Below, in pieces: positions 37,305 through 46,585 of a stretch of DNA of 64,000 nt. A model generated the notes under the pieces. It was not told the origin of the DNA and made no database searches. It worked only from the letters and a program-made list of their open reading frames with translations. The stretch's first letter is position 1. Each line of letters opens with the position of its first letter. Position numbers and translations under genes: made by a program. Source of the DNA: Chryseobacterium shigense (GTDB taxonomy: Bacteria; Bacteroidota; Bacteroidia; Flavobacteriales; Weeksellaceae); NCBI RefSeq assembly GCF_014207845.1, contig NZ_JACHLC010000002.1, forward strand, positions 434,001-498,000, written 5' to 3'.

Positions 37305-39467
37305 TTATAATCCCAATTCTAATTGATTCTGTATCAGTTCAAAATATTTCCCTCTTATCATGATTAATTCATCATGTGTGCCTTGCTCAGAAATGACCCC
37401 ATTGTCTAATACAACGATCTGGTCTGCGTTTTTTACGGTAGACAGGCGGTGCGCAACCACAATCATTGTTTTGTTTTTAAAAAAGTTATCGATATTTTGA
37501 ACAATGATCCGTTCATTTTTTGCATCTAATGAGTTGGTTGCTTCATCAAAAAACAGGTAATCCGGATCTTTATAGATTGCACGGGCTATGAGTATGCGTT
37601 GTTTTTGTCCCTGGCTTATTCCTATACCTTCAGAACCGATAATGGTATTGTTTTTCAATGGAAGACTGTTGATAAAGTTACTGATATTAGAAAGTGAAAT
37701 AGCAATTTGCAGTTTTTCTTCATCCGGATTTTCTTCAAGAGATATATTGTAGGCAATAGTATCTGAAAATATATAACTGTCCTGGAGTATAACACCACAT
37801 TTTTGCCTCCAAATAGTATTCTCTACTTCTTCTAAGGGGATGTTTCCAAGAAAAATAGTGCCCTGCTGCGGTTTATAAAATTTTAAGATTAATTTTAAAA
37901 GAGAGGTTTTTCCACTACCGCTTGCCCCTACTATTGCTGTGGTTTTGCCGCTTGGGATATTTAAGTTTATATTATTTAAAATATAATTTGAATCGTCATA
38001 TGCAAAGCTCACATTTTGAACAGAAATATCAGATATTTCATTCAATGAGTCAACTTTACTGATATTTTCTTCGTCATTTTTATTGTGAATTTCATTAAGT
38101 CTTTCAAAACTAATTTTAACTAGGTGATAACGCAGGAAGAATGTTATTAATTGGGAAATAGGGTTGTTCATACCACCGATAATGTACATAATGGAAAGCA
38201 TTGTCCCGATTGTCATGTTCTGATTCATTACAGCGATCGATGATGTGAAGACCACTAAAATATTTTGAAAGAAATTTATAAATTTATAGCTTTCATATTT
38301 CTGATTAACTTTAAGTTTTTCGATGTTATTGAGGTAAATGTTAGATTGAATTTCCCCCCATTCATGGCGCTTATAATCTTCGAGATTATTAAGTTTGATT
38401 TCCTGCATAGAATTGATGATTTCATAGATCTTGTTTTGATCAGTAGACTGCAGAGAAAATGTTTTTTGATCAAGGATTTTAATTTTTTTGAAAAAATTAA
38501 ATATCCATGAAAGTTCAAGAGTTGTTCCAATTAAAACAATCAGAAATACAGTGGTATTAAAATAAAATAATACGAAAGAATATATTATAATACTAAATAA
38601 AGAGAATACAGTTTGAATCAAATCTTGTGATAAAAACTCTTCGATCCTTTTGTGGTCCTGAATTCTCTGTATCAAATCTCCCGTATTTTTACTGTTGAAA
38701 AACTTCAACGGAAGCTTCATAAGCTTTGCTAAAAAATCAGAAATAATAGACAAACTGATTCTGCTGCTGATGTGAATAAATAGCCAGGAGCGGTAATATT
38801 CTAACCCTATTTTACTTATAAATAGAACGATTTGGGCAATTAAAATTAGATATATAAGATTGACCTGCTTTAAAGCAACTCCTTTGTCTAGAATTTTTTG
38901 GGTAAAAAAAGGAAAAACCAACTCAATGCAAGACGATACTAATAATGTGAGTGCTATGAGAATAAATTGAGTTTTGTGTTTTTTTATATATTGAATGACG
39001 TATTCAATGTTCTTGGCTGATTTCTTCTGGTTTTTAACTGATTTCTCATATAATTTTTCCGTAGGATTTAATATTAGAATGACTCCTTCTTCTTTATCCT
39101 GTGTCCAGCCTTTTAAGAATTCTTGCTTTGTATATGTGGTTTTGCCAAAAGCAGGATCCGCTACATACACTTTATCTTTAGTAATCTTATATACAACAAG
39201 AAAATGATTTTGATTCCAGTAAAATATAGAGGGTAAAGAAATATTTTGAAGGGCATTTTCATAAGTTAGTTTAACGGGTAGTGTTTCAAAACCGAGCTCT
39301 TGTGCTGTATGATTGAGATCGGAAATAGTGATTCCTCTTTTTGAAAGATTGATGTCAGAAAAAATAGAATTAGATAGCAAAACACCATAGTACTTACTTA
39401 TCATTTTGAGGCAGGCTAAGCTGCAGTCTTGGCTATCTAATTGTTTTATAAAAGGAAATTTTTTCAT
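37305..39467 (-). CDS. Peptidase-containing ABC transporter (C39 + TM + NBD), 720 aa
   Basis: Processes and exports peptides with double-glycine leaders. The N-terminal C39 protease has catalytic Cys15 in DSQDCSLACL, His88 in NQNHFLVVYK and Asp104 in VADPAFGK. Six membrane segments follow (about 165-460). The nucleotide-binding domain has Walker A GASGSGKT (514-521), signature ISQGQ (617-621) and Walker B YLFFDE (637-642). It sits directly downstream of two precursor-like peptides, so it is probably their exporter. The microprotein gene follows 1 bp after. Confidence 0.94.
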   Translation of the reverse strand: MKKFPFIKQLDSQDCSLACLKMISKYYGVLLSNSIFSDINLSKRGITISDLNHTAQELGFETLPVKLTYENALQNISLPSIFYWNQNHFLVVYKITKDKVYVADPAFGKTTYTKQEFLKGWTQDKEEGVILILNPTEKLYEKSVKNQKKSAKNIEYVIQYIKKHKTQFILIALTLLVSSCIELVFPFFTQKILDKGVALKQVNLIYLILIAQIVLFISKIGLEYYRSWLFIHISSRISLSIISDFLAKLMKLPLKFFNSKNTGDLIQRIQDHKRIEEFLSQDLIQTVFSLFSIIIYSFVLFYFNTTVFLIVLIGTTLELSWIFNFFKKIKILDQKTFSLQSTDQNKIYEIINSMQEIKLNNLEDYKRHEWGEIQSNIYLNNIEKLKVNQKYESYKFINFFQNILVVFTSSIAVMNQNMTIGTMLSIMYIIGGMNNPISQLITFFLRYHLVKISFERLNEIHNKNDEENISKVDSLNEISDISVQNVSFAYDDSNYILNNINLNIPSGKTTAIVGASGSGKTSLLKLILKFYKPQQGTIFLGNIPLEEVENTIWRQKCGVILQDSYIFSDTIAYNISLEENPDEEKLQIAISLSNISNFINSLPLKNNTIIGSEGIGISQGQKQRILIARAIYKDPDYLFFDEATNSLDAKNERIIVQNIDNFFKNKTMIVVAHRLSTVKNADQIVVLDNGVISEQGTHDELIMIRGKYFELIQNQLELGL

Positions 39468-39521: not shown

Positions 39522-39743
39522 CTACATGTTGATAACTTTTGAGAAGCCTATTCTGTCAAATACAACCTGGGTATATACTAGTTGGCCATAAAGCGGAGTT
39601 TGATTGATATATGAATTGTTTTCTAAAAAATATTGCCTTTCAATTACATTTTGTAGAACAACAGGAAGTTTTTCAATTTCTTTTTTTTCCTTAATTAGAT
39701 GGATAATTGGTGTCTTTAGATAAAAAAGGTTATTAGTTCTCAT
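39522..39743 (-). CDS. Second precursor-like peptide with three aromatic-x-x units, 73 aa
   Basis: A leader of about 55 residues (MRTNNLFYLKTPIIHLI ...) is followed by the core YTQVVFDRIGFSK (Y57-T-Q, F62-D-R, F67-S-K). This lines up position for position with YSQVVYDRIIYTR in the 68-aa peptide at 41453-41659. It has no GG leader-cleavage motif, so cleavage may differ or it may not be exported. Two genes separate it from the first precursor. Likely a second substrate of the radical SAM enzyme, or a divergent copy. Confidence 0.78.
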   Translation of the reverse strand: MRTNNLFYLKTPIIHLIKEKKEIEKLPVVLQNVIERQYFLENNSYINQTPLYGQLVYTQVVFDRIGFSKVINM

Positions 39744-40147: not shown

Positions 40148-41383
40148 TTAGTTACTTAAAGCGAAACTCTCTAATTTTTTTGCATAAGCAGGTTCTGGAA
40201 TGGTAGGAAGTTTCTCTTCAATCAGTTTTACGGCGTCTTGGTATGTCAGTTTTTGTATTCCTGTCTCTTCAATAAGGTTTTCTGGAAGGCTGTCAATAAC
40301 CCTATTCTGAATGTGAGTAATAAGCATTAATAAATCATCACAGTAGACCGAAGGGTTATTAAATCCATTCTTTGAACTGTATCTGTGAGGTAAATATCCG
40401 CCTCCGCACACCTCATTTACAGGGCAGGCCAAACATTTTTTGCACAGCATCTGCTTACTGTTATAATATACATCTATCAGGTCACTTTGGAAGATATCGT
40501 CAAATTCATTTGTATGAAGATTAAATTTATGCTTGGTGAAGCTCTCTCCACAGATCTTCAATACATCAAGAGATTCAATATCGCCGTTTGTTTCTATGAC
40601 AGCTAGCTTATTATAGCCTTTTCCTGCGCTCTCAGAACTTGATTCTGATCCAAAAATAAGATTGATAAAGTCTTCAAATTTAATTATGGATGTTTTTTTA
40701 TTTCCTTCAAGGTCATACCAATAATTAAACAGTTCAATTAGCCAGTCGGCATTTTTGAGCCTTGGTACCTGATCTATACTATCATAATTTTCATCCAATA
40801 ATAAGAGATTAATGGTGGAAAAGCCTAAAGACCTGTAAGCTTCATAGAGATCAATCGGGGAGGATTGGAAATTTATAACAGACAGACAGCCTAAGGGAAA
40901 TTCCATGTGCTCCTTTGCCACATTGATGCCTTGTTTTACTCTCTCGAACGTTCCGTTGCCTTTTTTGTCTATCCGGTACATATCGTTCACCTCTTTGTCG
41001 CCATCAAGGCTTATTCCTACACCTACATTATATTTATTAAATAGTTCACAGTGCTGCTTGCTGATCAGCATTCCATTGGTCTGCATTGCAAAAATTATGT
41101 TTATTCCATCTTCATGCAAAGAGTGCAGGGTTTCTAAAAAGAAAGCCAGATCTTTTACGCTGGAAAGCAGAGGTTCTCCTCCATGCAGAACGACAAAGAA
41201 ACTGTTTAAATTATGGGATAAGCAATGGTTTTTGATTTTTTCTTTCAGCGCCTCTACAGTACTTTTCGACATAAACTTGGGCTGGACCAGATAAGATTGA
41301 TCGGCATGATTATACATATAGCAATATGTACAATTAATATTACATCGGCTGGCAACTTTTACTACTAATGCCTGTATATTCAT
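40148..41383 (-). CDS. FxsB-like radical SAM/SPASM peptide-modifying enzyme, 411 aa
   Basis: The radical SAM motif CNINCTYC is at residues 14-21 (Cys14, Cys18, Cys21). It is followed by YMYNHADQSYLVQPKFMS, matching the 'CYxYxxxDxS ... P..MS' region of FxsB/GrrM-type cyclophane-forming enzymes. The C-terminal SPASM region has LCKKCLACPVNEVCGGGYLPHR and NPSVYCDDL, as in FxsB. These enzymes join an aromatic ring to the beta carbon of a residue two positions later. Here the substrate is inferred from the neighbouring precursors. Confidence 0.93.
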   Translation of the reverse strand: MNIQALVVKVASRCNINCTYCYMYNHADQSYLVQPKFMSKSTVEALKEKIKNHCLSHNLNSFFVVLHGGEPLLSSVKDLAFFLETLHSLHEDGINIIFAMQTNGMLISKQHCELFNKYNVGVGISLDGDKEVNDMYRIDKKGNGTFERVKQGINVAKEHMEFPLGCLSVINFQSSPIDLYEAYRSLGFSTINLLLLDENYDSIDQVPRLKNADWLIELFNYWYDLEGNKKTSIIKFEDFINLIFGSESSSESAGKGYNKLAVIETNGDIESLDVLKICGESFTKHKFNLHTNEFDDIFQSDLIDVYYNSKQMLCKKCLACPVNEVCGGGYLPHRYSSKNGFNNPSVYCDDLLMLITHIQNRVIDSLPENLIEETGIQKLTYQDAVKLIEEKLPTIPEPAYAKKLESFALSN

Positions 41384-41415: not shown

Positions 41416-41440
41416 GAGAGGTATAAATTTTATACCTCTC
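41416..41440 (-). promoter_or_regulatory. Intra-operon hairpin between precursor and maturase
   Basis: Perfect 10-bp inverted repeat GAGAGGTATA/TATACCTCTC with a 5-nt loop, in the 69-nt gap between the precursor stop (41453) and the radical SAM start (41383). No run of T follows. It is probably an attenuating or mRNA-stabilising hairpin that makes precursor mRNA exceed enzyme mRNA, as in other RiPP operons; that role is inferred. Confidence 0.7.
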
Positions 41441-41452
41441 ATAATTTATTTG

Positions 41453-41659
41453 TTACTCAGAGATAGTAGCTCCTGTAACGTGTCTTGTATATATGATTCT
41501 ATCATATACTACTTGCGAATAGCCTACTAGGTCACGAGAAGTACCTCCTATTCCGTTTTCTGCTTCAAGCTGTAAAACAGCTTTTTTTAGAACATCATTT
41601 TTGATTAAACCTGAATGCTTCGCTAAATTTTTAGCTTCTTTTTTGTTAAATGTAAACAT
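41453..41659 (-). CDS. RiPP precursor peptide, 68 aa, GG leader and three-fold aromatic-x-x core
   Basis: Opens MFTFNKKEAKNLAKHSGLIK. A GG pair at residues 38-39 (in ENGIGGTSRD) marks the likely C39 cleavage site. The predicted core contains YSQVVYDRIIYTRH, with aromatic residues Y47, Y52 and Y57 exactly five apart, each followed by a polar residue and then Gln or Arg. Such aromatic-x-x units are what FxsB-like enzymes convert to cyclophanes. Upstream of the enzyme gene and the first gene of the operon after a 141-bp spacer. Confidence 0.85.
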   Translation of the reverse strand: MFTFNKKEAKNLAKHSGLIKNDVLKKAVLQLEAENGIGGTSRDLVGYSQVVYDRIIYTRHVTGATISE

Positions 41660-41800: not shown

Positions 41801-44179
41801 TTAATTGACTCTTTTCTTTTCTTCGTCATTACTTAGCTTTCTAGACTGAATCTTTAAGGATTTTCCAAAATTCCAACTTAATGATAATCTTATTTTTTGG
41901 GTATCACGGTAATCATAATTCTCCTGCTTTATATTATTAACGATTTGGGTAAATGTCATTTTGTTGGTTTTGAAAATGTCCATTGCATTGAGCGCTATCT
42001 GAAGTTTTTTTTCTAATAATGATAGCTTTATACCTGCATTGAAATAATAAAAAGATGATATTTTATAGCTGTTGGCAATTGAAGGAGATTGGTAAGTGAA
42101 ACCAAGTTCTGCTCTAAGTGTTTTTGAAGAATTCAAAACAAAACTGTTATTTGAGCTTACAGAAACGGTCCAGGCTTCAATATCATTTAATGTATTCGTG
42201 AGATCAGATATTGTTTTAGAATAGAAAATATTTGCCTGATTATTGCTTTCCCACCAGCTCCATTGATTCAAAACATAACTTTCCAATATACCCCAGTTTG
42301 CCTGTTTAAAAAAATTAGTAGGAATTACAGCCTGAACAGGATTGCTGCTGGAAACATAGGTTACTTGGTCAAACCCATTCGTGATATAGCTCGTATAGAC
42401 TGCGGTATAATAATTTTTATAGCTATAGGACAATTCAAGATTGTCCGTAAAATAAGGCTGTAAAAAAGGGTTTCCTTCTCCATAATTGTATTTCGTGGTG
42501 TAAAATCTGAAAGGATTTAAATCCCCATACGTTGGGCGGTCTATCCGTCTGTTGTAGTTAAGGCCCAATACACTATTCTCACTGATTAAATAATTTAAGT
42601 AAAATGTTGGAAAAAGTTTTATATAATTGTTTTTATTCGTTTGATGAAGAGTTTCTGAAAACCCTTTGGTCTGGGTGCTTTCCCATCTTAGCCCCAATTG
42701 TGTCTCCCATTTTGAAGATAATTTTTTGTTACCCGAAATATACACGGACTGTGTGTTTTCTTTATAATTAAACCCGTTGCTCTTCCCCAAATCTAAACTG
42801 GAATTTCCATTACTTGTATCATAATAGAACACCTTGCTGTCATTATTGATAAAGGATAGTTTTGCCCCAAATGATAGATTAATCCATTTCAGCGGCGTTT
42901 CAATATCTATTTTTGATGAGTATATATCAATGTCCTGGCTGCTGAGATTATTTGCTGATAAAAATTGGCTAGGTGTGCTTTCATTAGGTAGAAAGCTGGA
43001 TGACGAAAACTTATTATCGGCATTAGAGTCAAATTTAAAATAATCTAGATCAAAGGATATCTGTCTTCCTAAAGTATCCAATTTTGTTATTGAATGGAAA
43101 TTCAGTGCATGATTTTTTTTATTTACTTTTAGGTATGACGGAGTGTAAACCAGAGAATCTAAAACATTCTTTGAACTTCTAATGTAAGATGTATTTGTTC
43201 CTTTGCGCATAGGGTTATTTATTCCTCCGAGGTACTGTATACCTATTGTTGTTTTATTAGTGAGAGCATAGTCTAAAGAAAGCCTGCCACTTAAATTATT
43301 TCTAAAGTTTCTTGAGTTATTGATTTCAAACCATGTGTAATTTGGATAATGTAAGGTATATTCCTGGTAGGGAGCAATACTTCCATTTTCATAATCTAAG
43401 CTCGATGTCAGCGTTACTTTTTTCTTCTGATAATTAATCCCAAGACCGTAATTCCCCAATGAATATTTGGCTTGAGTATAACTAGATTTTATTGTTCCGC
43501 TAAGATAATTTTGCTTGGCTTTTTTCAGCTTGATATTTATGATTCCACTATTGCCTTCCGATTCATATTTTGCCGGAGGGTTATTAATGATTTCAATACT
43601 TTTAATATCTTCAGACCTTATGCTTTTTAAAAAACTTATTAAATCTGCATCTGAAAGCTGAATAAGCCTGTCATCTACCATAATGGACACTTTATTTTTC
43701 CCGACTATACCTATTTGGTCGTTAAGTATTTTTACACCCGGTGTTATACCTAAAGCTTCATATGCGTCTGCGCCTGTGGCAGATACGGAATTCTCTACAT
43801 TAAATACAAGTCTGTCAATTTTTCTTTCAATTAATTTTTTCCTTACAGAAATAACTACATCCTGAATCTTTGTTTCCTTTAGATCTATGATAATATCCTT
43901 TTTCGTTTGATTTAAAATACTGATGTTTTTTTCATAAATCATTCTTCCATCCTTCAGTACAGATATTTTATAATCTCCGTTATGTGGCAATTGCATAAAA
44001 AAATTTCCATGCTCGTCACCTATTGCGGAGACTTTTATTTTGTCCTGACTTAAAGAGACTTCTGCATAGCTGATTTCTTCTTGATGGGGGGTTAATAACT
44101 TTCCTGTTATGCTCTGCCCGCTTACAGCTGCTCCGGCCAAAAGAATAATTATTTTGAAAAGAATTACAATATTTTTCAT
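41801..44179 (-). CDS. OMP_b-brl_3/TonB-receptor-like outer-membrane protein, 792 aa
   Basis: A signal peptide (MKNIVILFKIIILLAGAAVSGQ) is followed by a carboxypeptidase-regulatory-like domain (SITGKLLTPHQEEISYAEVSL) and a plug-like segment (RLVFNVENSVSATGADAYEAL). A large barrel with FLKSIRSEDIKSIEIINNPPAKYE completes the typical Bacteroidota OMP_b-brl_3 layout. Start at 44179 rather than 44191 because of the -7 box at 44189-44196. Two operator palindromes lie upstream, inside the end of the acyltransferase gene. It may take up or sense the signal or the exported peptide; that is inferred. Confidence 0.88.
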   Translation of the reverse strand: MKNIVILFKIIILLAGAAVSGQSITGKLLTPHQEEISYAEVSLSQDKIKVSAIGDEHGNFFMQLPHNGDYKISVLKDGRMIYEKNISILNQTKKDIIIDLKETKIQDVVISVRKKLIERKIDRLVFNVENSVSATGADAYEALGITPGVKILNDQIGIVGKNKVSIMVDDRLIQLSDADLISFLKSIRSEDIKSIEIINNPPAKYESEGNSGIINIKLKKAKQNYLSGTIKSSYTQAKYSLGNYGLGINYQKKKVTLTSSLDYENGSIAPYQEYTLHYPNYTWFEINNSRNFRNNLSGRLSLDYALTNKTTIGIQYLGGINNPMRKGTNTSYIRSSKNVLDSLVYTPSYLKVNKKNHALNFHSITKLDTLGRQISFDLDYFKFDSNADNKFSSSSFLPNESTPSQFLSANNLSSQDIDIYSSKIDIETPLKWINLSFGAKLSFINNDSKVFYYDTSNGNSSLDLGKSNGFNYKENTQSVYISGNKKLSSKWETQLGLRWESTQTKGFSETLHQTNKNNYIKLFPTFYLNYLISENSVLGLNYNRRIDRPTYGDLNPFRFYTTKYNYGEGNPFLQPYFTDNLELSYSYKNYYTAVYTSYITNGFDQVTYVSSSNPVQAVIPTNFFKQANWGILESYVLNQWSWWESNNQANIFYSKTISDLTNTLNDIEAWTVSVSSNNSFVLNSSKTLRAELGFTYQSPSIANSYKISSFYYFNAGIKLSLLEKKLQIALNAMDIFKTNKMTFTQIVNNIKQENYDYRDTQKIRLSLSWNFGKSLKIQSRKLSNDEEKKRVN

Positions 44180-44188
44180 CAATGAAAT

Positions 44189-44196
44189 CAAAGGTA
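44189..44196 (-). promoter_or_regulatory. -7 box of the outer-membrane barrel promoter
   Basis: TACCTTTG on the - strand, an exact TAnnTTTG match. The palindrome at 44219-44234 begins 22 nt upstream of it. The likely start site lies only ~5 nt before the ATG at 44179. Confidence 0.8.
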
Positions 44197-44218
44197 TAGA
44201 ATAGGGTTTTTATAGGCA

Positions 44219-44234
44219 CTACACAAAAGTGTAG
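44219..44234. promoter_or_regulatory. Operator palindrome, copy 1 (barrel gene)
   Basis: CTACACAAAAGTGTAG, a perfect inverted repeat with 6-bp arms and a 4-bp centre. It overlaps the stop codon of the acyltransferase gene, 22 nt upstream of the barrel -7 box, so its centre is near -43. Confidence 0.85.
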
Positions 44235-44884
44235 TATTGATGAGGGGTTGATAAAACTACACTTTTGTGTAGATTTTCTTCATGACAGCTTAGAAAATGG
44301 AGATTGTAATCAAGGAAATTTTTTAAAGTCTTATAGGTTAAGATAACGGGTACTGTTTCAGATCCTAAATAATGGATAGAATTTGTAATGGCTGTTGTTT
44401 CTATGCCTAGTGCTTTCAGTATTCTTAACAGCTTAACGTCGCATTCTGCTATGGCTAAAGAATTCGTATTAGTGCAGACATCATTAATAGCATGGACCAT
44501 TAATGTTTTAAACAGACTGAATCCAGATCCTTCAGCTCCTTTTTTTATTGCAAACCTTCCGATGTGCCAGATATCTGTTTTTTTCGTTTCTAGTATGTTT
44601 TTAAGATCAATGGCAAACATTTTTTCTATAGGCAGGATATCCAGTGTATTCCACTTTAATGTTCTTATAGATCCTATGATTTTGTTCTCACTGTTTGTTG
44701 CTACTAAAACTTTTGAATTGGAAAATTTTGATTCTTCTTCATAAATATATTCAATTTCTTTTTCTATAAAGGCTTGATTATGTGCGGGTTTTTCAACATG
44801 GTGTGATAAATTTTCTTCTACTACAAACTTTGCAAGGTGTTTTAAGTCTGATTTTTTTAAAATAGATAATTTGATTGTTTTCAT
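44219..44884 (-). CDS. FeeM/AHL-synthase-like N-acyltransferase, 221 aa
   Basis: GNAT-superfamily protein with the layout of N-acyl amino acid synthases and LuxI-type enzymes. IIGSIRTLKWNT (about 69-80) is followed by IWHIGRFAI (105-113), AECDVKLLRILKALGIE (147-162) and HYLGSETVPVI (171-181). It probably joins an acyl chain to an amino group to make a small lipid signal. The donor and acceptor are unknown, and the family call is from pattern only. Divergent from the LuxR-type regulator; its 3' end holds two operators of the next gene. Confidence 0.75.
   Translation of the reverse strand: MKTIKLSILKKSDLKHLAKFVVEENLSHHVEKPAHNQAFIEKEIEYIYEEESKFSNSKVLVATNSENKIIGSIRTLKWNTLDILPIEKMFAIDLKNILETKKTDIWHIGRFAIKKGAEGSGFSLFKTLMVHAINDVCTNTNSLAIAECDVKLLRILKALGIETTAITNSIHYLGSETVPVILTYKTLKNFLDYNLHFLSCHEENLHKSVVLSTPHQYYTFV
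44257..44272. promoter_or_regulatory. Operator palindrome, copy 2 (barrel gene)
   Basis: CTACACTTTTGTGTAG, the same 6-4-6 palindrome, 38 bp upstream of copy 1 and wholly within the coding region of the acyltransferase. Confidence 0.82.
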
Positions 44885-44903
44885 TATTTTGGTTTAGTTT
44901 TGA

Positions 44904-44911
44904 TAAATTTA
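44904..44911 (-). promoter_or_regulatory. -7 box of the acyltransferase promoter
   Basis: TAAATTTA on the - strand, one base off TAnnTTTG at the last position. The palindrome at 44934-44949 begins 22 nt upstream, the same spacing as at the barrel and ThiF-like genes. Confidence 0.75.
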
Positions 44912-44933
44912 TTATGATTTTAATAGTATTTTG

Positions 44934-44949
44934 CTACACTTTTGTGTAG
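44934..44949. promoter_or_regulatory. Operator palindrome, copy 3 (divergent promoters)
   Basis: CTACACTTTTGTGTAG, perfect. It sits between the acyltransferase and regulator genes. It is 22 nt from the acyltransferase -7 box and overlaps the regulator -7 box at 44947-44954 by three bases. Confidence 0.87.
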
Positions 44950-44954
44950 ATTTG
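44947..44954 (+). promoter_or_regulatory. -7 box of the LuxR-type regulator promoter
   Basis: TAGATTTG on +, an exact TAnnTTTG match that shares TAG with the end of operator copy 3. A protein bound to the operator would block this promoter, suggesting autorepression. Confidence 0.72.
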
Positions 44955-45012
44955 ATGTAAAATGCTTAAAAATACAAACGGGTGTGGAGGGCGTTTATAT
45001 AACTGGAATTAT

Positions 45013-45771
45013 ATGGAGGAAATCAACAAATTTTTTTCAGAGAAAAATACGGTGCATAATTTATCACAAAATGAATTGATGCAGACGTTTAACTATCTGG
45101 AACCTATAAAAGCATTTGCGAGGATCACTTACAAAAGCATATATGTTATAGATTATCAAAAGAAAACGTTTGAATACGTGTCAGATAATCCGTTATTTTT
45201 ATGTGGCCATAGCCCGGATGAAGTGAAAGAATTGGGGTATGCTTTCTATTTCAAGCACGTAAAAGAAGAAGATTTAGAACTTCTGATCACTATAAATGAA
45301 ATTGGATTCAATTTTTATGAAAGCATTCCTATAGAAGAAAGAAAGCAACATACCATATCATATGATTTTCATTTGGTGAAAAAGAATAAAAAAAGTATTT
45401 TAGTAAATCACAAACTTACCCCTCTGTTCTTAACAGAAGATGGAAAGATCTGGAAAGCAATATGTATTGTATCACTTTCTCAAAATAATTCTTCAGGGAA
45501 TATCCAAATTTTTAAAGATGGAAGCGATACTATCTGGAAGTTTAATCTTTCTGAAAATGAATGGATAAAAAAGACCAAAATAAAACTTACAGATCGGGAA
45601 ATAGAAATTTTACTGCTTTATGCACAGGGCTTGACTATCAATGACATTGCAGAAAAAATTTATCTTACGGCTGATACAATTAAATTCCATAGGAGAAAGC
45701 TTTTTGACAAGATCGGTGTACAAAATATCACAGAAGCGCTATCTTACGCTACAAATAATAAGCTCATTTAA
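45013..45771 (+). CDS. LuxR-type transcriptional regulator with N-terminal PAS-like domain, 252 aa
   Basis: N-terminal ~150 residues look like a PAS fold (SIYVIDYQKKTFEYVSDNPL and the following helices). The C-terminal ~65 residues are the LuxR helix-turn-helix: LTDREIEILLLYAQGLTIND, TADTIKFHRRKLFDKIGV. Start set at 45013 (MEEINKFF), because the -7 box at 44947-44954 puts transcription near 44961; the ATG at 44962 would be nearly leaderless. Divergent from the acyltransferase and convergent with the ThiF-like gene. Probably binds the palindromes near both. Confidence 0.9.
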   Translation: MEEINKFFSEKNTVHNLSQNELMQTFNYLEPIKAFARITYKSIYVIDYQKKTFEYVSDNPLFLCGHSPDEVKELGYAFYFKHVKEEDLELLITINEIGFNFYESIPIEERKQHTISYDFHLVKKNKKSILVNHKLTPLFLTEDGKIWKAICIVSLSQNNSSGNIQIFKDGSDTIWKFNLSENEWIKKTKIKLTDREIEILLLYAQGLTINDIAEKIYLTADTIKFHRRKLFDKIGVQNITEALSYATNNKLI

Positions 45772-45773
45772 GA

Positions 45774-46523
45774 CTATTCCATGATGGTATTAAAATAAAA
45801 ATCGGGGAACTGCTTGACCTTTTTATTGGTAATAATATTATACATTATAGTTGTACAGATCCCTGCGATGATCCAAGAACCAATAGCAAGCTGGGGAGGA
45901 GGGAGGGTTTCTTTCTCATCCTTGTAGCTTTTAAGTATTTTCTCAAGCCATAAGTTGGGTTCCATTATATGTTTTAATTGTTCAGCAAAAAATTCAACAA
46001 CACTCAATTCATTGATACGGGTGCTGCTGTTCAGGCTTTCTAAGGACAAGCCGTCGGGAGTAATGACCATTACCAATCCGCCCCAACCCAGATTGTAAGG
46101 GTGTAAAACGGGTATTCTTTTTTCTTTGCAAAGAGTATCGAAATGTAAAGGAATATCAGAAGTAAAATCTAAAGCATTAATAGCAATTGAATGGCCTTCA
46201 ATTATTTCTCTGATATTTTTTTCTGTTATAAATTCATTGATGTATTTGATTTCAGCTCCAGGATTAATACTTTTTAATCTGTTGTATAACGTTTCGGCTT
46301 TAGGCTTTTCTACGTCGTAATAAGTGAAATTTTGGCGGTTAAGGTTTGAAATTTCTATTTTGTCCCCATCTATGACGGTGATGTTTTCAAATCCAAAACG
46401 AAGAGCACATTCTGCAATATTGCTTCCGATCCCGCTTCCGGCAATTAATATAGGGTGTTTTTTAATTAAATCCTGTTCATCATTATTTACATATAATCTA
46501 TTTCTTGAGTATCTTTCTTCCAT
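45774..46523 (-). CDS. ThiF/E1-like adenylating enzyme, 249 aa
   Basis: Rossmann fold with the ATP-binding loop GSGIGSN (29-35) and the E1 hallmark DGDKIEISNLNRQ (52-64). The CxxC zinc pairs of ThiF and MoeB are absent, and no cysteine sits in a catalytic position, so it is unlikely to serve a sulfur carrier protein. It could adenylate a small carboxylate or a peptide C-terminus. Its own promoter carries an operator copy (46570-46585), tying it to the acyltransferase and regulator. Confidence 0.88.
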   Translation of the reverse strand: MEERYSRNRLYVNNDEQDLIKKHPILIAGSGIGSNIAECALRFGFENITVIDGDKIEISNLNRQNFTYYDVEKPKAETLYNRLKSINPGAEIKYINEFITEKNIREIIEGHSIAINALDFTSDIPLHFDTLCKEKRIPVLHPYNLGWGGLVMVITPDGLSLESLNSSTRINELSVVEFFAEQLKHIMEPNLWLEKILKSYKDEKETLPPPQLAIGSWIIAGICTTIMYNIITNKKVKQFPDFYFNTIME

Positions 46524-46539
46524 GGGTTAGTTTATAATG

Positions 46540-46547
46540 TAAAATTA
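46540..46547 (-). promoter_or_regulatory. -7 box of the ThiF-like gene promoter
   Basis: TAATTTTA on the - strand, TAnnTTTA. The degenerate operator at 46570-46585 begins 22 nt upstream. Confidence 0.65.
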
Positions 46548-46569
46548 TAATTAGATAACTAGAAATACC

Positions 46570-46585
46570 CTACACTCAGGTTTAA
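46570..46585. promoter_or_regulatory. Operator palindrome, copy 4 (degenerate)
   Basis: CTACACTCAGGTTTAA: one perfect arm, and an arm with two mismatches against GTGTAG. Same position relative to the ThiF-like -7 box as copies 1 and 3 have to theirs. Confidence 0.65.

Follow-up and report, generated by a model that had tools for sequence, protein, structure and literature searches.

Here we report on a stretch of 64,000 nucleotides from Chryseobacterium shigense (contig NZ_JACHLC010000002.1, positions 434,001 to 498,000), in the following called the window, whose own numbering is used for all coordinates. It contains genes for an acyltransferase of predicted FeeM/LuxI fold, for a regulator combining a PAS-like domain with a LuxR-type helix-turn-helix (HTH) and for a ThiF-like adenylating enzyme, and their promoters, as well as that of a neighbouring beta-barrel gene, carry the palindrome CTACAC-N4-GTGTAG. 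We consider it probable (about 0.7) that the regulator binds this palindrome and activates the acyltransferase gene, the ThiF gene and, likely, an operon for exported peptides, forming an autoinduction loop that runs via an acylated small signal. The sequences themselves show the operator with a fixed geometry, conserved across the phylum and found together with the regulator, as well as the gene architecture and the shared occurrence of acyltransferase and ThiF; the folds of acyltransferase and regulator come from predicted models. Beyond the original prediction of a shared operator at four promoters, the acyltransferase is FeeM/LuxI-like, ThiF is its constant partner and the circuit is phylum-wide. 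The elements are the following:

44189–44196, minus strand: -7 type box TACCTTTG of the barrel operon, 22 nt from operator 1
44219–44234, no strand: operator 1, an exact palindrome, proximal in the barrel promoter and conserved in relatives
44219–44884, minus strand: acyltransferase of FeeM/LuxI fold, predicted signal synthase
44257–44272, no strand: operator 2, also an exact palindrome, distal in the barrel promoter at 38 bp from operator 1
44904–44911, minus strand: -7 type box TAAATTTA of the acyltransferase, 22 nt from operator 3
44934–44949, no strand: operator 3, exact palindrome, divergent acyltransferase/regulator promoter
44947–44954, plus strand: regulator box TAGATTTG, overlapping operator 3
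44972–44987, no strand: second operator, decayed (3 mismatches), at 38 bp from operator 3
45013–45771, plus strand: regulator with PAS-like domain and LuxR-type (GerE) HTH, start chosen by conservation
45774–46523, minus strand: ThiF-like (E1-type) adenylating enzyme, constant partner of the acyltransferase
46540–46547, minus strand: -7 type box TAATTTTA of ThiF, 22 nt from the degenerate operator
46570–46585, no strand: degenerate operator, 2 mismatches, upstream of ThiF

The operator and its distance to the promoter box

The source genome of 4,154,632 bases contains three exact copies of the palindrome, all of them in the window (44219, 44257 and 44934), where base composition would lead one to expect 0.0025 copies (0.16 in the genome). 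The original prediction had listed these three and the degenerate copy at 46570, all of which were recovered, but had missed the decayed fifth copy at 44972; the place aligned to the latter holds an intact operator in the window's three closest relatives. No copy with exactly one mismatch was found in the genome, and allowing up to two mismatches brings no genome-wide enrichment (41 matches, the reversed control having 85), so that the copy at 46570 carries weight through its place and its box alone. Operator 2 falls within the acyltransferase reading frame, and operator 1 doubles as coding sequence for the final residues YTFV and the stop codon of that gene. The same YTFV end is found in 4 of 21 aligned relatives; confidence in the predicted model is low for this C-terminal tail.

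At the barrel, acyltransferase and ThiF promoters the palindrome edge does lie 22 nt from a TAnnTTT(A/G) box, in all three cases on the minus strand, as had been claimed. When the genome was scanned for this composite (palindrome plus 22 nt to the box) with up to three mismatches, these sites were the best (0, 0 and 2 mismatches), while the three other matches, each with three mismatches, stayed at control level (10 control matches). A wider regulon of this operator in its own genome was rejected, as no additional site rose above control. The barrel box is situated 9 nt before the ATG (6–9 nt in three relatives), so near that a nearly leaderless transcript is suggested.

TTG is the consensus of the upstream promoter element. 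Only 2 of 114 sites show it 17–19 nt upstream of the box, so the operator seems to stand in for this element; an operator at a fixed position by the RNA polymerase site, together with the missing upstream element, is what a class II LuxR-type site would look like in sequence. The earlier proposal that a LuxR-type activator site takes the place of the -33 element is thus strongly supported by the near absence of TTG and by the 22-nt distance, which is fixed across the phylum. Autorepression of the regulator had been proposed as well. Its box TAGATTTG (44947) indeed overlaps the palindrome in the window, but the idea finds partial support only: 8 of 34 loci have an overlapping TAnnTTTG box on the regulator strand, and autorepression may therefore be lineage-specific.

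Within the genus, the acyltransferase is present in 35 of 173 genomes, a profile search and a single-sequence search giving the same 35. The 35 fetched loci and the window (n=36) were examined for sites with at most two mismatches. Such a site lies upstream of the acyltransferase in 34/36 loci (the exceptions being a second copy without regulator and a contig edge), of the barrel-type gene in 21/23 and of ThiF in 20/26. All 75 cases keep a distance of exactly 22 nt to the box; they are not all independent, as about ten loci are near-identical. The arms are nearly constant and the four central bases variable. Two sites 38 bp apart are found at 20 of the 21 barrel promoters having a site, and the region between acyltransferase and regulator holds one or two, spaced 28, 38 or 39 bp.

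A scan for the composite with at most one mismatch was positive in 101 of the 173 genomes (reversed control: 2). Set against strong regulator homologues, using a cut-off chosen after the table had been inspected, 95 genomes have both, 6 + 6 are discordant and 66 have neither (odds ratio 174); this near coincidence of composite-positive and regulator-positive genomes ties the operator to the regulator. Exact composites remote from their own acyltransferase/regulator locus were seen at G035:C2:4403797-4403842, G140:C2:317741-317786, G093:C6:125993-126038 and G158:C15:120811-120856 (genome, contig and positions).

A scan of the phylum returned 122 relatives, of which 80 loci were kept. They stem from Chryseobacterium, Cruoricaptor, Kaistella, Riemerella, Flavobacterium, Tenacibaculum, Aquimarina, Kordia, Zobellia and other Flavobacteriaceae, from Saprospiraceae, Spirosomataceae, Marinoscillum and Saccharicrinis, and from one Parabacteroides record. 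Acyltransferase and regulator stand head-to-head in 78/80 loci (in one of these, L188, the regulator is split over two frames). ThiF converges on the regulator in 62/80, and for 11 of 12 other loci checked it is located elsewhere in the genome. The acyltransferase promoter has the box at 22 nt in 74/80 loci with up to three mismatches, in 59 with up to two and in 35 with up to one; an offset of 50 in 10 loci reflects a second site 28 bp upstream, and every other offset occurred once. With up to two mismatches, the 22-nt box was found at 32/62 ThiF and 23/34 barrel genes and in none of the base-shuffled upstream regions. Acyltransferase, regulator and ThiF co-diverge with r 0.81 to 0.87 (62 loci); the values for the barrel against each of the three are lower (r 0.57 to 0.62, 34 loci), all correlations being computed without species-tree control. 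The trio is constant and the neighbouring cassette is variable.

Acyltransferase, regulator, ThiF and associated cassettes

The predicted model of the acyltransferase adopts the GNAT-derived fold of acyl-homoserine lactone synthases. Its best structural match is FeeM (2G0B), tied with LasI, at about 12% identity to FeeM. It was the fold search that placed the protein, as a sequence search of the PDB gave no chain at E<=1. The Pfam family FeeM (PF21926) matches 14 of 22 members at E<=0.1 (best 1.3e-8), the window protein scoring 24.5 against a cut-off of 27, whereas Autoind_synth (PF00765) matches 1 of the 22 at all and gives the window protein 16.9 bits against a cut-off of 24. Among the 120 of 735 proteins covered, the acyltransferases are mostly named 'hypothetical protein' in the source records, some bearing a generic GNAT/N-acetyltransferase name. 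Chryseobacterium balustinum (L048 / L162) has a second copy with no adjoining regulator or ThiF and an operator-promoter just downstream.

The LuxR-type HTH (GerE) was matched in 21/21 regulator members, and the autoinducer-binding domain PF03472 was absent from the 21 families that these 21 members matched at E<=0.1. The N-terminal part is modelled as a PAS-like fold with VqmA among the best matches; LOV and haem PAS domains are also among them.

The window's ThiF matches its family with 118.4 bits (cut-off 28.1), and the nucleotide-site residues G29, G31, D54, R63, K75 and D119, which we take to be catalytic after MoeB, are invariant across 24 sequences. Carboxylate adenylation is the chemistry common to ThiF-like enzymes. 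Passages of PMC12250964 agree on this point and describe how such enzymes elsewhere form rings on peptides, thiolactones and imides among them. At E<=1e-40 ThiF is found in 34 of the 173 genus genomes, all of which hold the acyltransferase, and the sole acyltransferase genome without ThiF among the 35 is 73% complete. In an order sample of 395 genomes the identical 25, from six genera, carry both genes (11 of these 25 belong to the window's genus and are already in the genus count). Copy numbers match in two multi-copy genomes (three acyltransferases and three ThiF, one of these partial; two and two), but differ in others: G346 carries a single acyltransferase with two ThiF, whereas G010 and the record containing L197 and L206 each carry two acyltransferases with a single ThiF. 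At loci with NHLP-like peptides ThiF is not beside the regulator, and six operators about 12 kb away were suspected to mark it; the search that followed found ThiF directly downstream of all six, each with its own operator. The remote ThiF genes of G012 and G071 show no site at one mismatch.

The window's ThiF family is represented by the solved structures 9EGB, 9EGC and 9EGD, from which it follows that at least one group has worked on such an enzyme. They carry a generic name and by eye most resemble Tenacibaculum sequences. No text on them was found among the papers listed from the open literature, subscription papers being mostly outside the search scope.

In the genus, 66 of the 101 regulator-positive genomes have no acyltransferase. 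Twenty additional regulator loci (L080-L099) were considered separately; 19 stem from such genomes, the genome of L099 has an acyltransferase elsewhere, and a FeeM profile search of the loci gave zero matches. All have the operator upstream of the regulator (14 exact, 1 with one mismatch, 5 with two), and in 16/20 the 22-nt composite is oriented away from the regulator. A small exported protein with the motif GRHxYRNxW is encoded in 8/20; the one scanned had no Pfam match. These regulators are candidate eavesdroppers, and in the regulator tree the solos fall into several groups amid paired regulators (four label changes). DUF3667 proteins adjoin the regulator at a locus with NHLP-like peptides (L052, 10602-11342) and at a solo regulator (L083, 5400-6089).

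The likely peptide operon of the window consists of:

41801–44179, minus strand: outer-membrane beta-barrel protein (PF14905), first gene of the likely operon
41453–41659, minus strand: putative precursor peptide 1 with GG leader and VVYDRI core
40148–41383, minus strand: radical SAM/SPASM maturase, most like the FxsB/YhhB cyclophane type though under either cut-off
39522–39743, minus strand: putative precursor peptide 2 with VVFDRI, presumed in the same role
37305–39467, minus strand: C39-peptidase ABC exporter

Neither putative peptide matched a Pfam or NCBIfam family. The maturase scored 349.6 against 445 for YhhB and 320.4 against 370 for FxsB, and so falls short of the family cut-offs for cyclophane-type clusters of ribosomally synthesised and post-translationally modified peptides. 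The stretch from putative peptide 1 to the radical SAM gene contains an 11-pair inverted repeat (41416-41440), possibly an attenuator or processing site. Elsewhere the trio is followed by a barrel with lanthipeptide enzymes, by radical SAM proteins, by C39-type exporters (by similarity), by NHLP-like peptides (named by eye, without Pfam match) with a DUF4135 enzyme, or by NusG-led or HTTM-like cassettes. A NusG-like antiterminator gene is present in the cassette behind the acyltransferase at ten loci (L155, L160, L168, L170, L171, L186, L193, L196, L197 and L206), which suggests long operons for another product class.

The proposed circuit and its alternatives

The synthase fold, the head-to-head LuxR-type regulator, the activator-type operator and the co-occurring second enzyme find their simplest account in autoinduction. 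The product of 45013-45771 would bind CTACAC-N4-GTGTAG, centred near -42, and would activate transcription in a class II-like manner from its fixed spot 22 nt upstream of the -7 box. The acyltransferase probably moves an acyl chain onto an amino acid or similar amine, and ThiF may adenylate the carboxylate of this product in order to cyclise or condense it. Ring chemistry on an N-acyl amino acid could yield an acyl-ring signal without S-adenosylmethionine. The PAS domain presumably senses the joint product, and with the synthase genes activated by their own signal the loop would be closed. The barrel-led operon (putative peptides, radical SAM maturase, C39 exporter) would be the local cargo, exchanged for other cassettes in other genomes. 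It weighs against this scheme that a ThiF site with up to two mismatches is lacking in the window's three closest relatives.

A far-reaching version, which we put forward tentatively and hold for less likely true than false, is an S-adenosylmethionine-independent quorum sensing system throughout the Bacteroidota, with an acyl-ring autoinducer (lactone-, oxazolone- or imide-like) made by acyltransferase and ThiF, a PAS-LuxR receptor, a portable trio placed before exported antimicrobials, and eavesdroppers without synthase.

The acyltransferase is often followed by peptide-type cassettes, and both enzymes might instead be tailoring enzymes that acylate and cyclise the exported peptide, the regulator sensing something else and merely controlling the cluster. 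Passages of PMC12250964 report that ribosomal peptides do get cyclised by ThiF-like adenylating enzymes, and acylated lanthipeptides are known (PMC13060382, a paper using the word GNAT 26 times). However, the class of cassette changes between loci while acyltransferase and ThiF stay, the ten NusG-led loci share no common peptide maturase family within the flanks examined, and ThiF is separated from the cassette by the regulator or, in six genomes, stands about 12 kb away with its own operator. As the regulator moreover co-diverges more with the two enzymes than with the barrel, we regard tailoring as unlikely. Equally, the joint product might be a lipid or secondary metabolite without signal function, and the PAS domain might sense another cue such as redox state, haem, flavin or a metabolite of the host. 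The range of ligands bound by PAS domains is wide, the fold matches include those of LOV and haem type, and most genomes with a strong regulator homologue lack the acyltransferase, all of which fits this idea. Both enzyme genes are themselves targets of the operator, though, in a divergent LuxI/LuxR-like layout as expected of autoinduction synthases, and VqmA, a quorum receptor of the PAS-LuxR type, is among the best fold matches, which leaves this explanation with a low probability.

Finally, the palindromes could be weak terminator hairpins or the repressor site of another protein. A simple scan does flag two of the three exact copies as terminator-like (44257 on both strands, and 44934; 6-bp stem, 4-nt loop), and one copy overlaps the stop codon of the acyltransferase. 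Yet one exact distance to the boxes is kept at three kinds of genes, the loop sequence varies, and presence of the palindrome tracks the regulator gene; on these grounds the hairpin was rejected, and we give this last explanation hardly any credence.

Comparison with known systems

No description of an acyltransferase-ThiF-LuxR system in Bacteroidota was found among the papers listed from the open literature (at most 20 per search), subscription papers being mostly outside its scope. PMC6000730 reports LuxR proteins but no matching synthase in Bacteroidetes and leaves room for an unknown synthase family. According to parts of PMC11069264, whose set includes four Bacteroidetes genomes only, all LuxI and LuxR came from Proteobacteria; the same paper cites an earlier report of LuxI/LuxR-type genes in Bacteroidetes. 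In PMC10734526 a Tenacibaculum lanthipeptide and a Kordia proteusin cluster are treated, with nothing on the present system in the sections concerned. For the LuxR-type proteins of Bacteroidota without a known synthase, our analysis names a candidate synthase, an unexpected second enzyme, an operator and target genes. In addition, operator, 22 nt and box form a short DNA signature by which candidate regulated promoters can be found phylum-wide, and the circuit might serve to switch on silent clusters for exported peptides.

Small-molecule sensing by a LuxR-type protein has been proposed before in this phylum, namely for a LuxR solo of Dyadobacter with dialkylresorcinols (PMC9606717). There, biosynthesis depends on the dar operon, and the passages concerned mention no FeeM, ThiF or operator. 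Among ThiF-like enzymes, the window's protein has sequence relatives of known fold in TcdA, MccB, MoeB and 9EGB/9EGC/9EGD. What sets it apart from the known ones is its co-occurring partner, an acyltransferase in place of a carrier protein, a tRNA or one peptide class.

The N-acyl amino acid synthase FeeM (2G0B) is the best structural match of the acyltransferase and gives its name to the Pfam family of 14 of the 22 members, in spite of the low identity noted above; to our knowledge, known FeeM is linked neither to a LuxR nor to a ThiF partner. VqmA, the 3,5-dimethylpyrazin-2-ol (DPO) receptor of Vibrio, likewise combines PAS and LuxR HTH, and the regulator matches it along both domains, but at 15–17% identity and with a different inter-domain angle; we know of no pairing of the VqmA gene with an acyl synthase.

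The closest parallel is LuxI/LuxR of the Pseudomonadota. Both systems have an acyl synthase of the same fold adjoining a LuxR-HTH regulator, the synthase gene among the targets, and an inverted-repeat operator near -42, the position of the lux box, in place of the upstream promoter element. In contrast, the synthase here matches FeeM and not LuxI, the receptor has no match to the autoinducer-binding domain, and a ThiF-like partner is present in the same genomes, for which we know of no counterpart in LuxI systems. Since the Autoind_synth cut-off was not reached and the autoinducer-binding domain gave no match, we predict a circuit which works like LuxI/LuxR yet stands outside those families.

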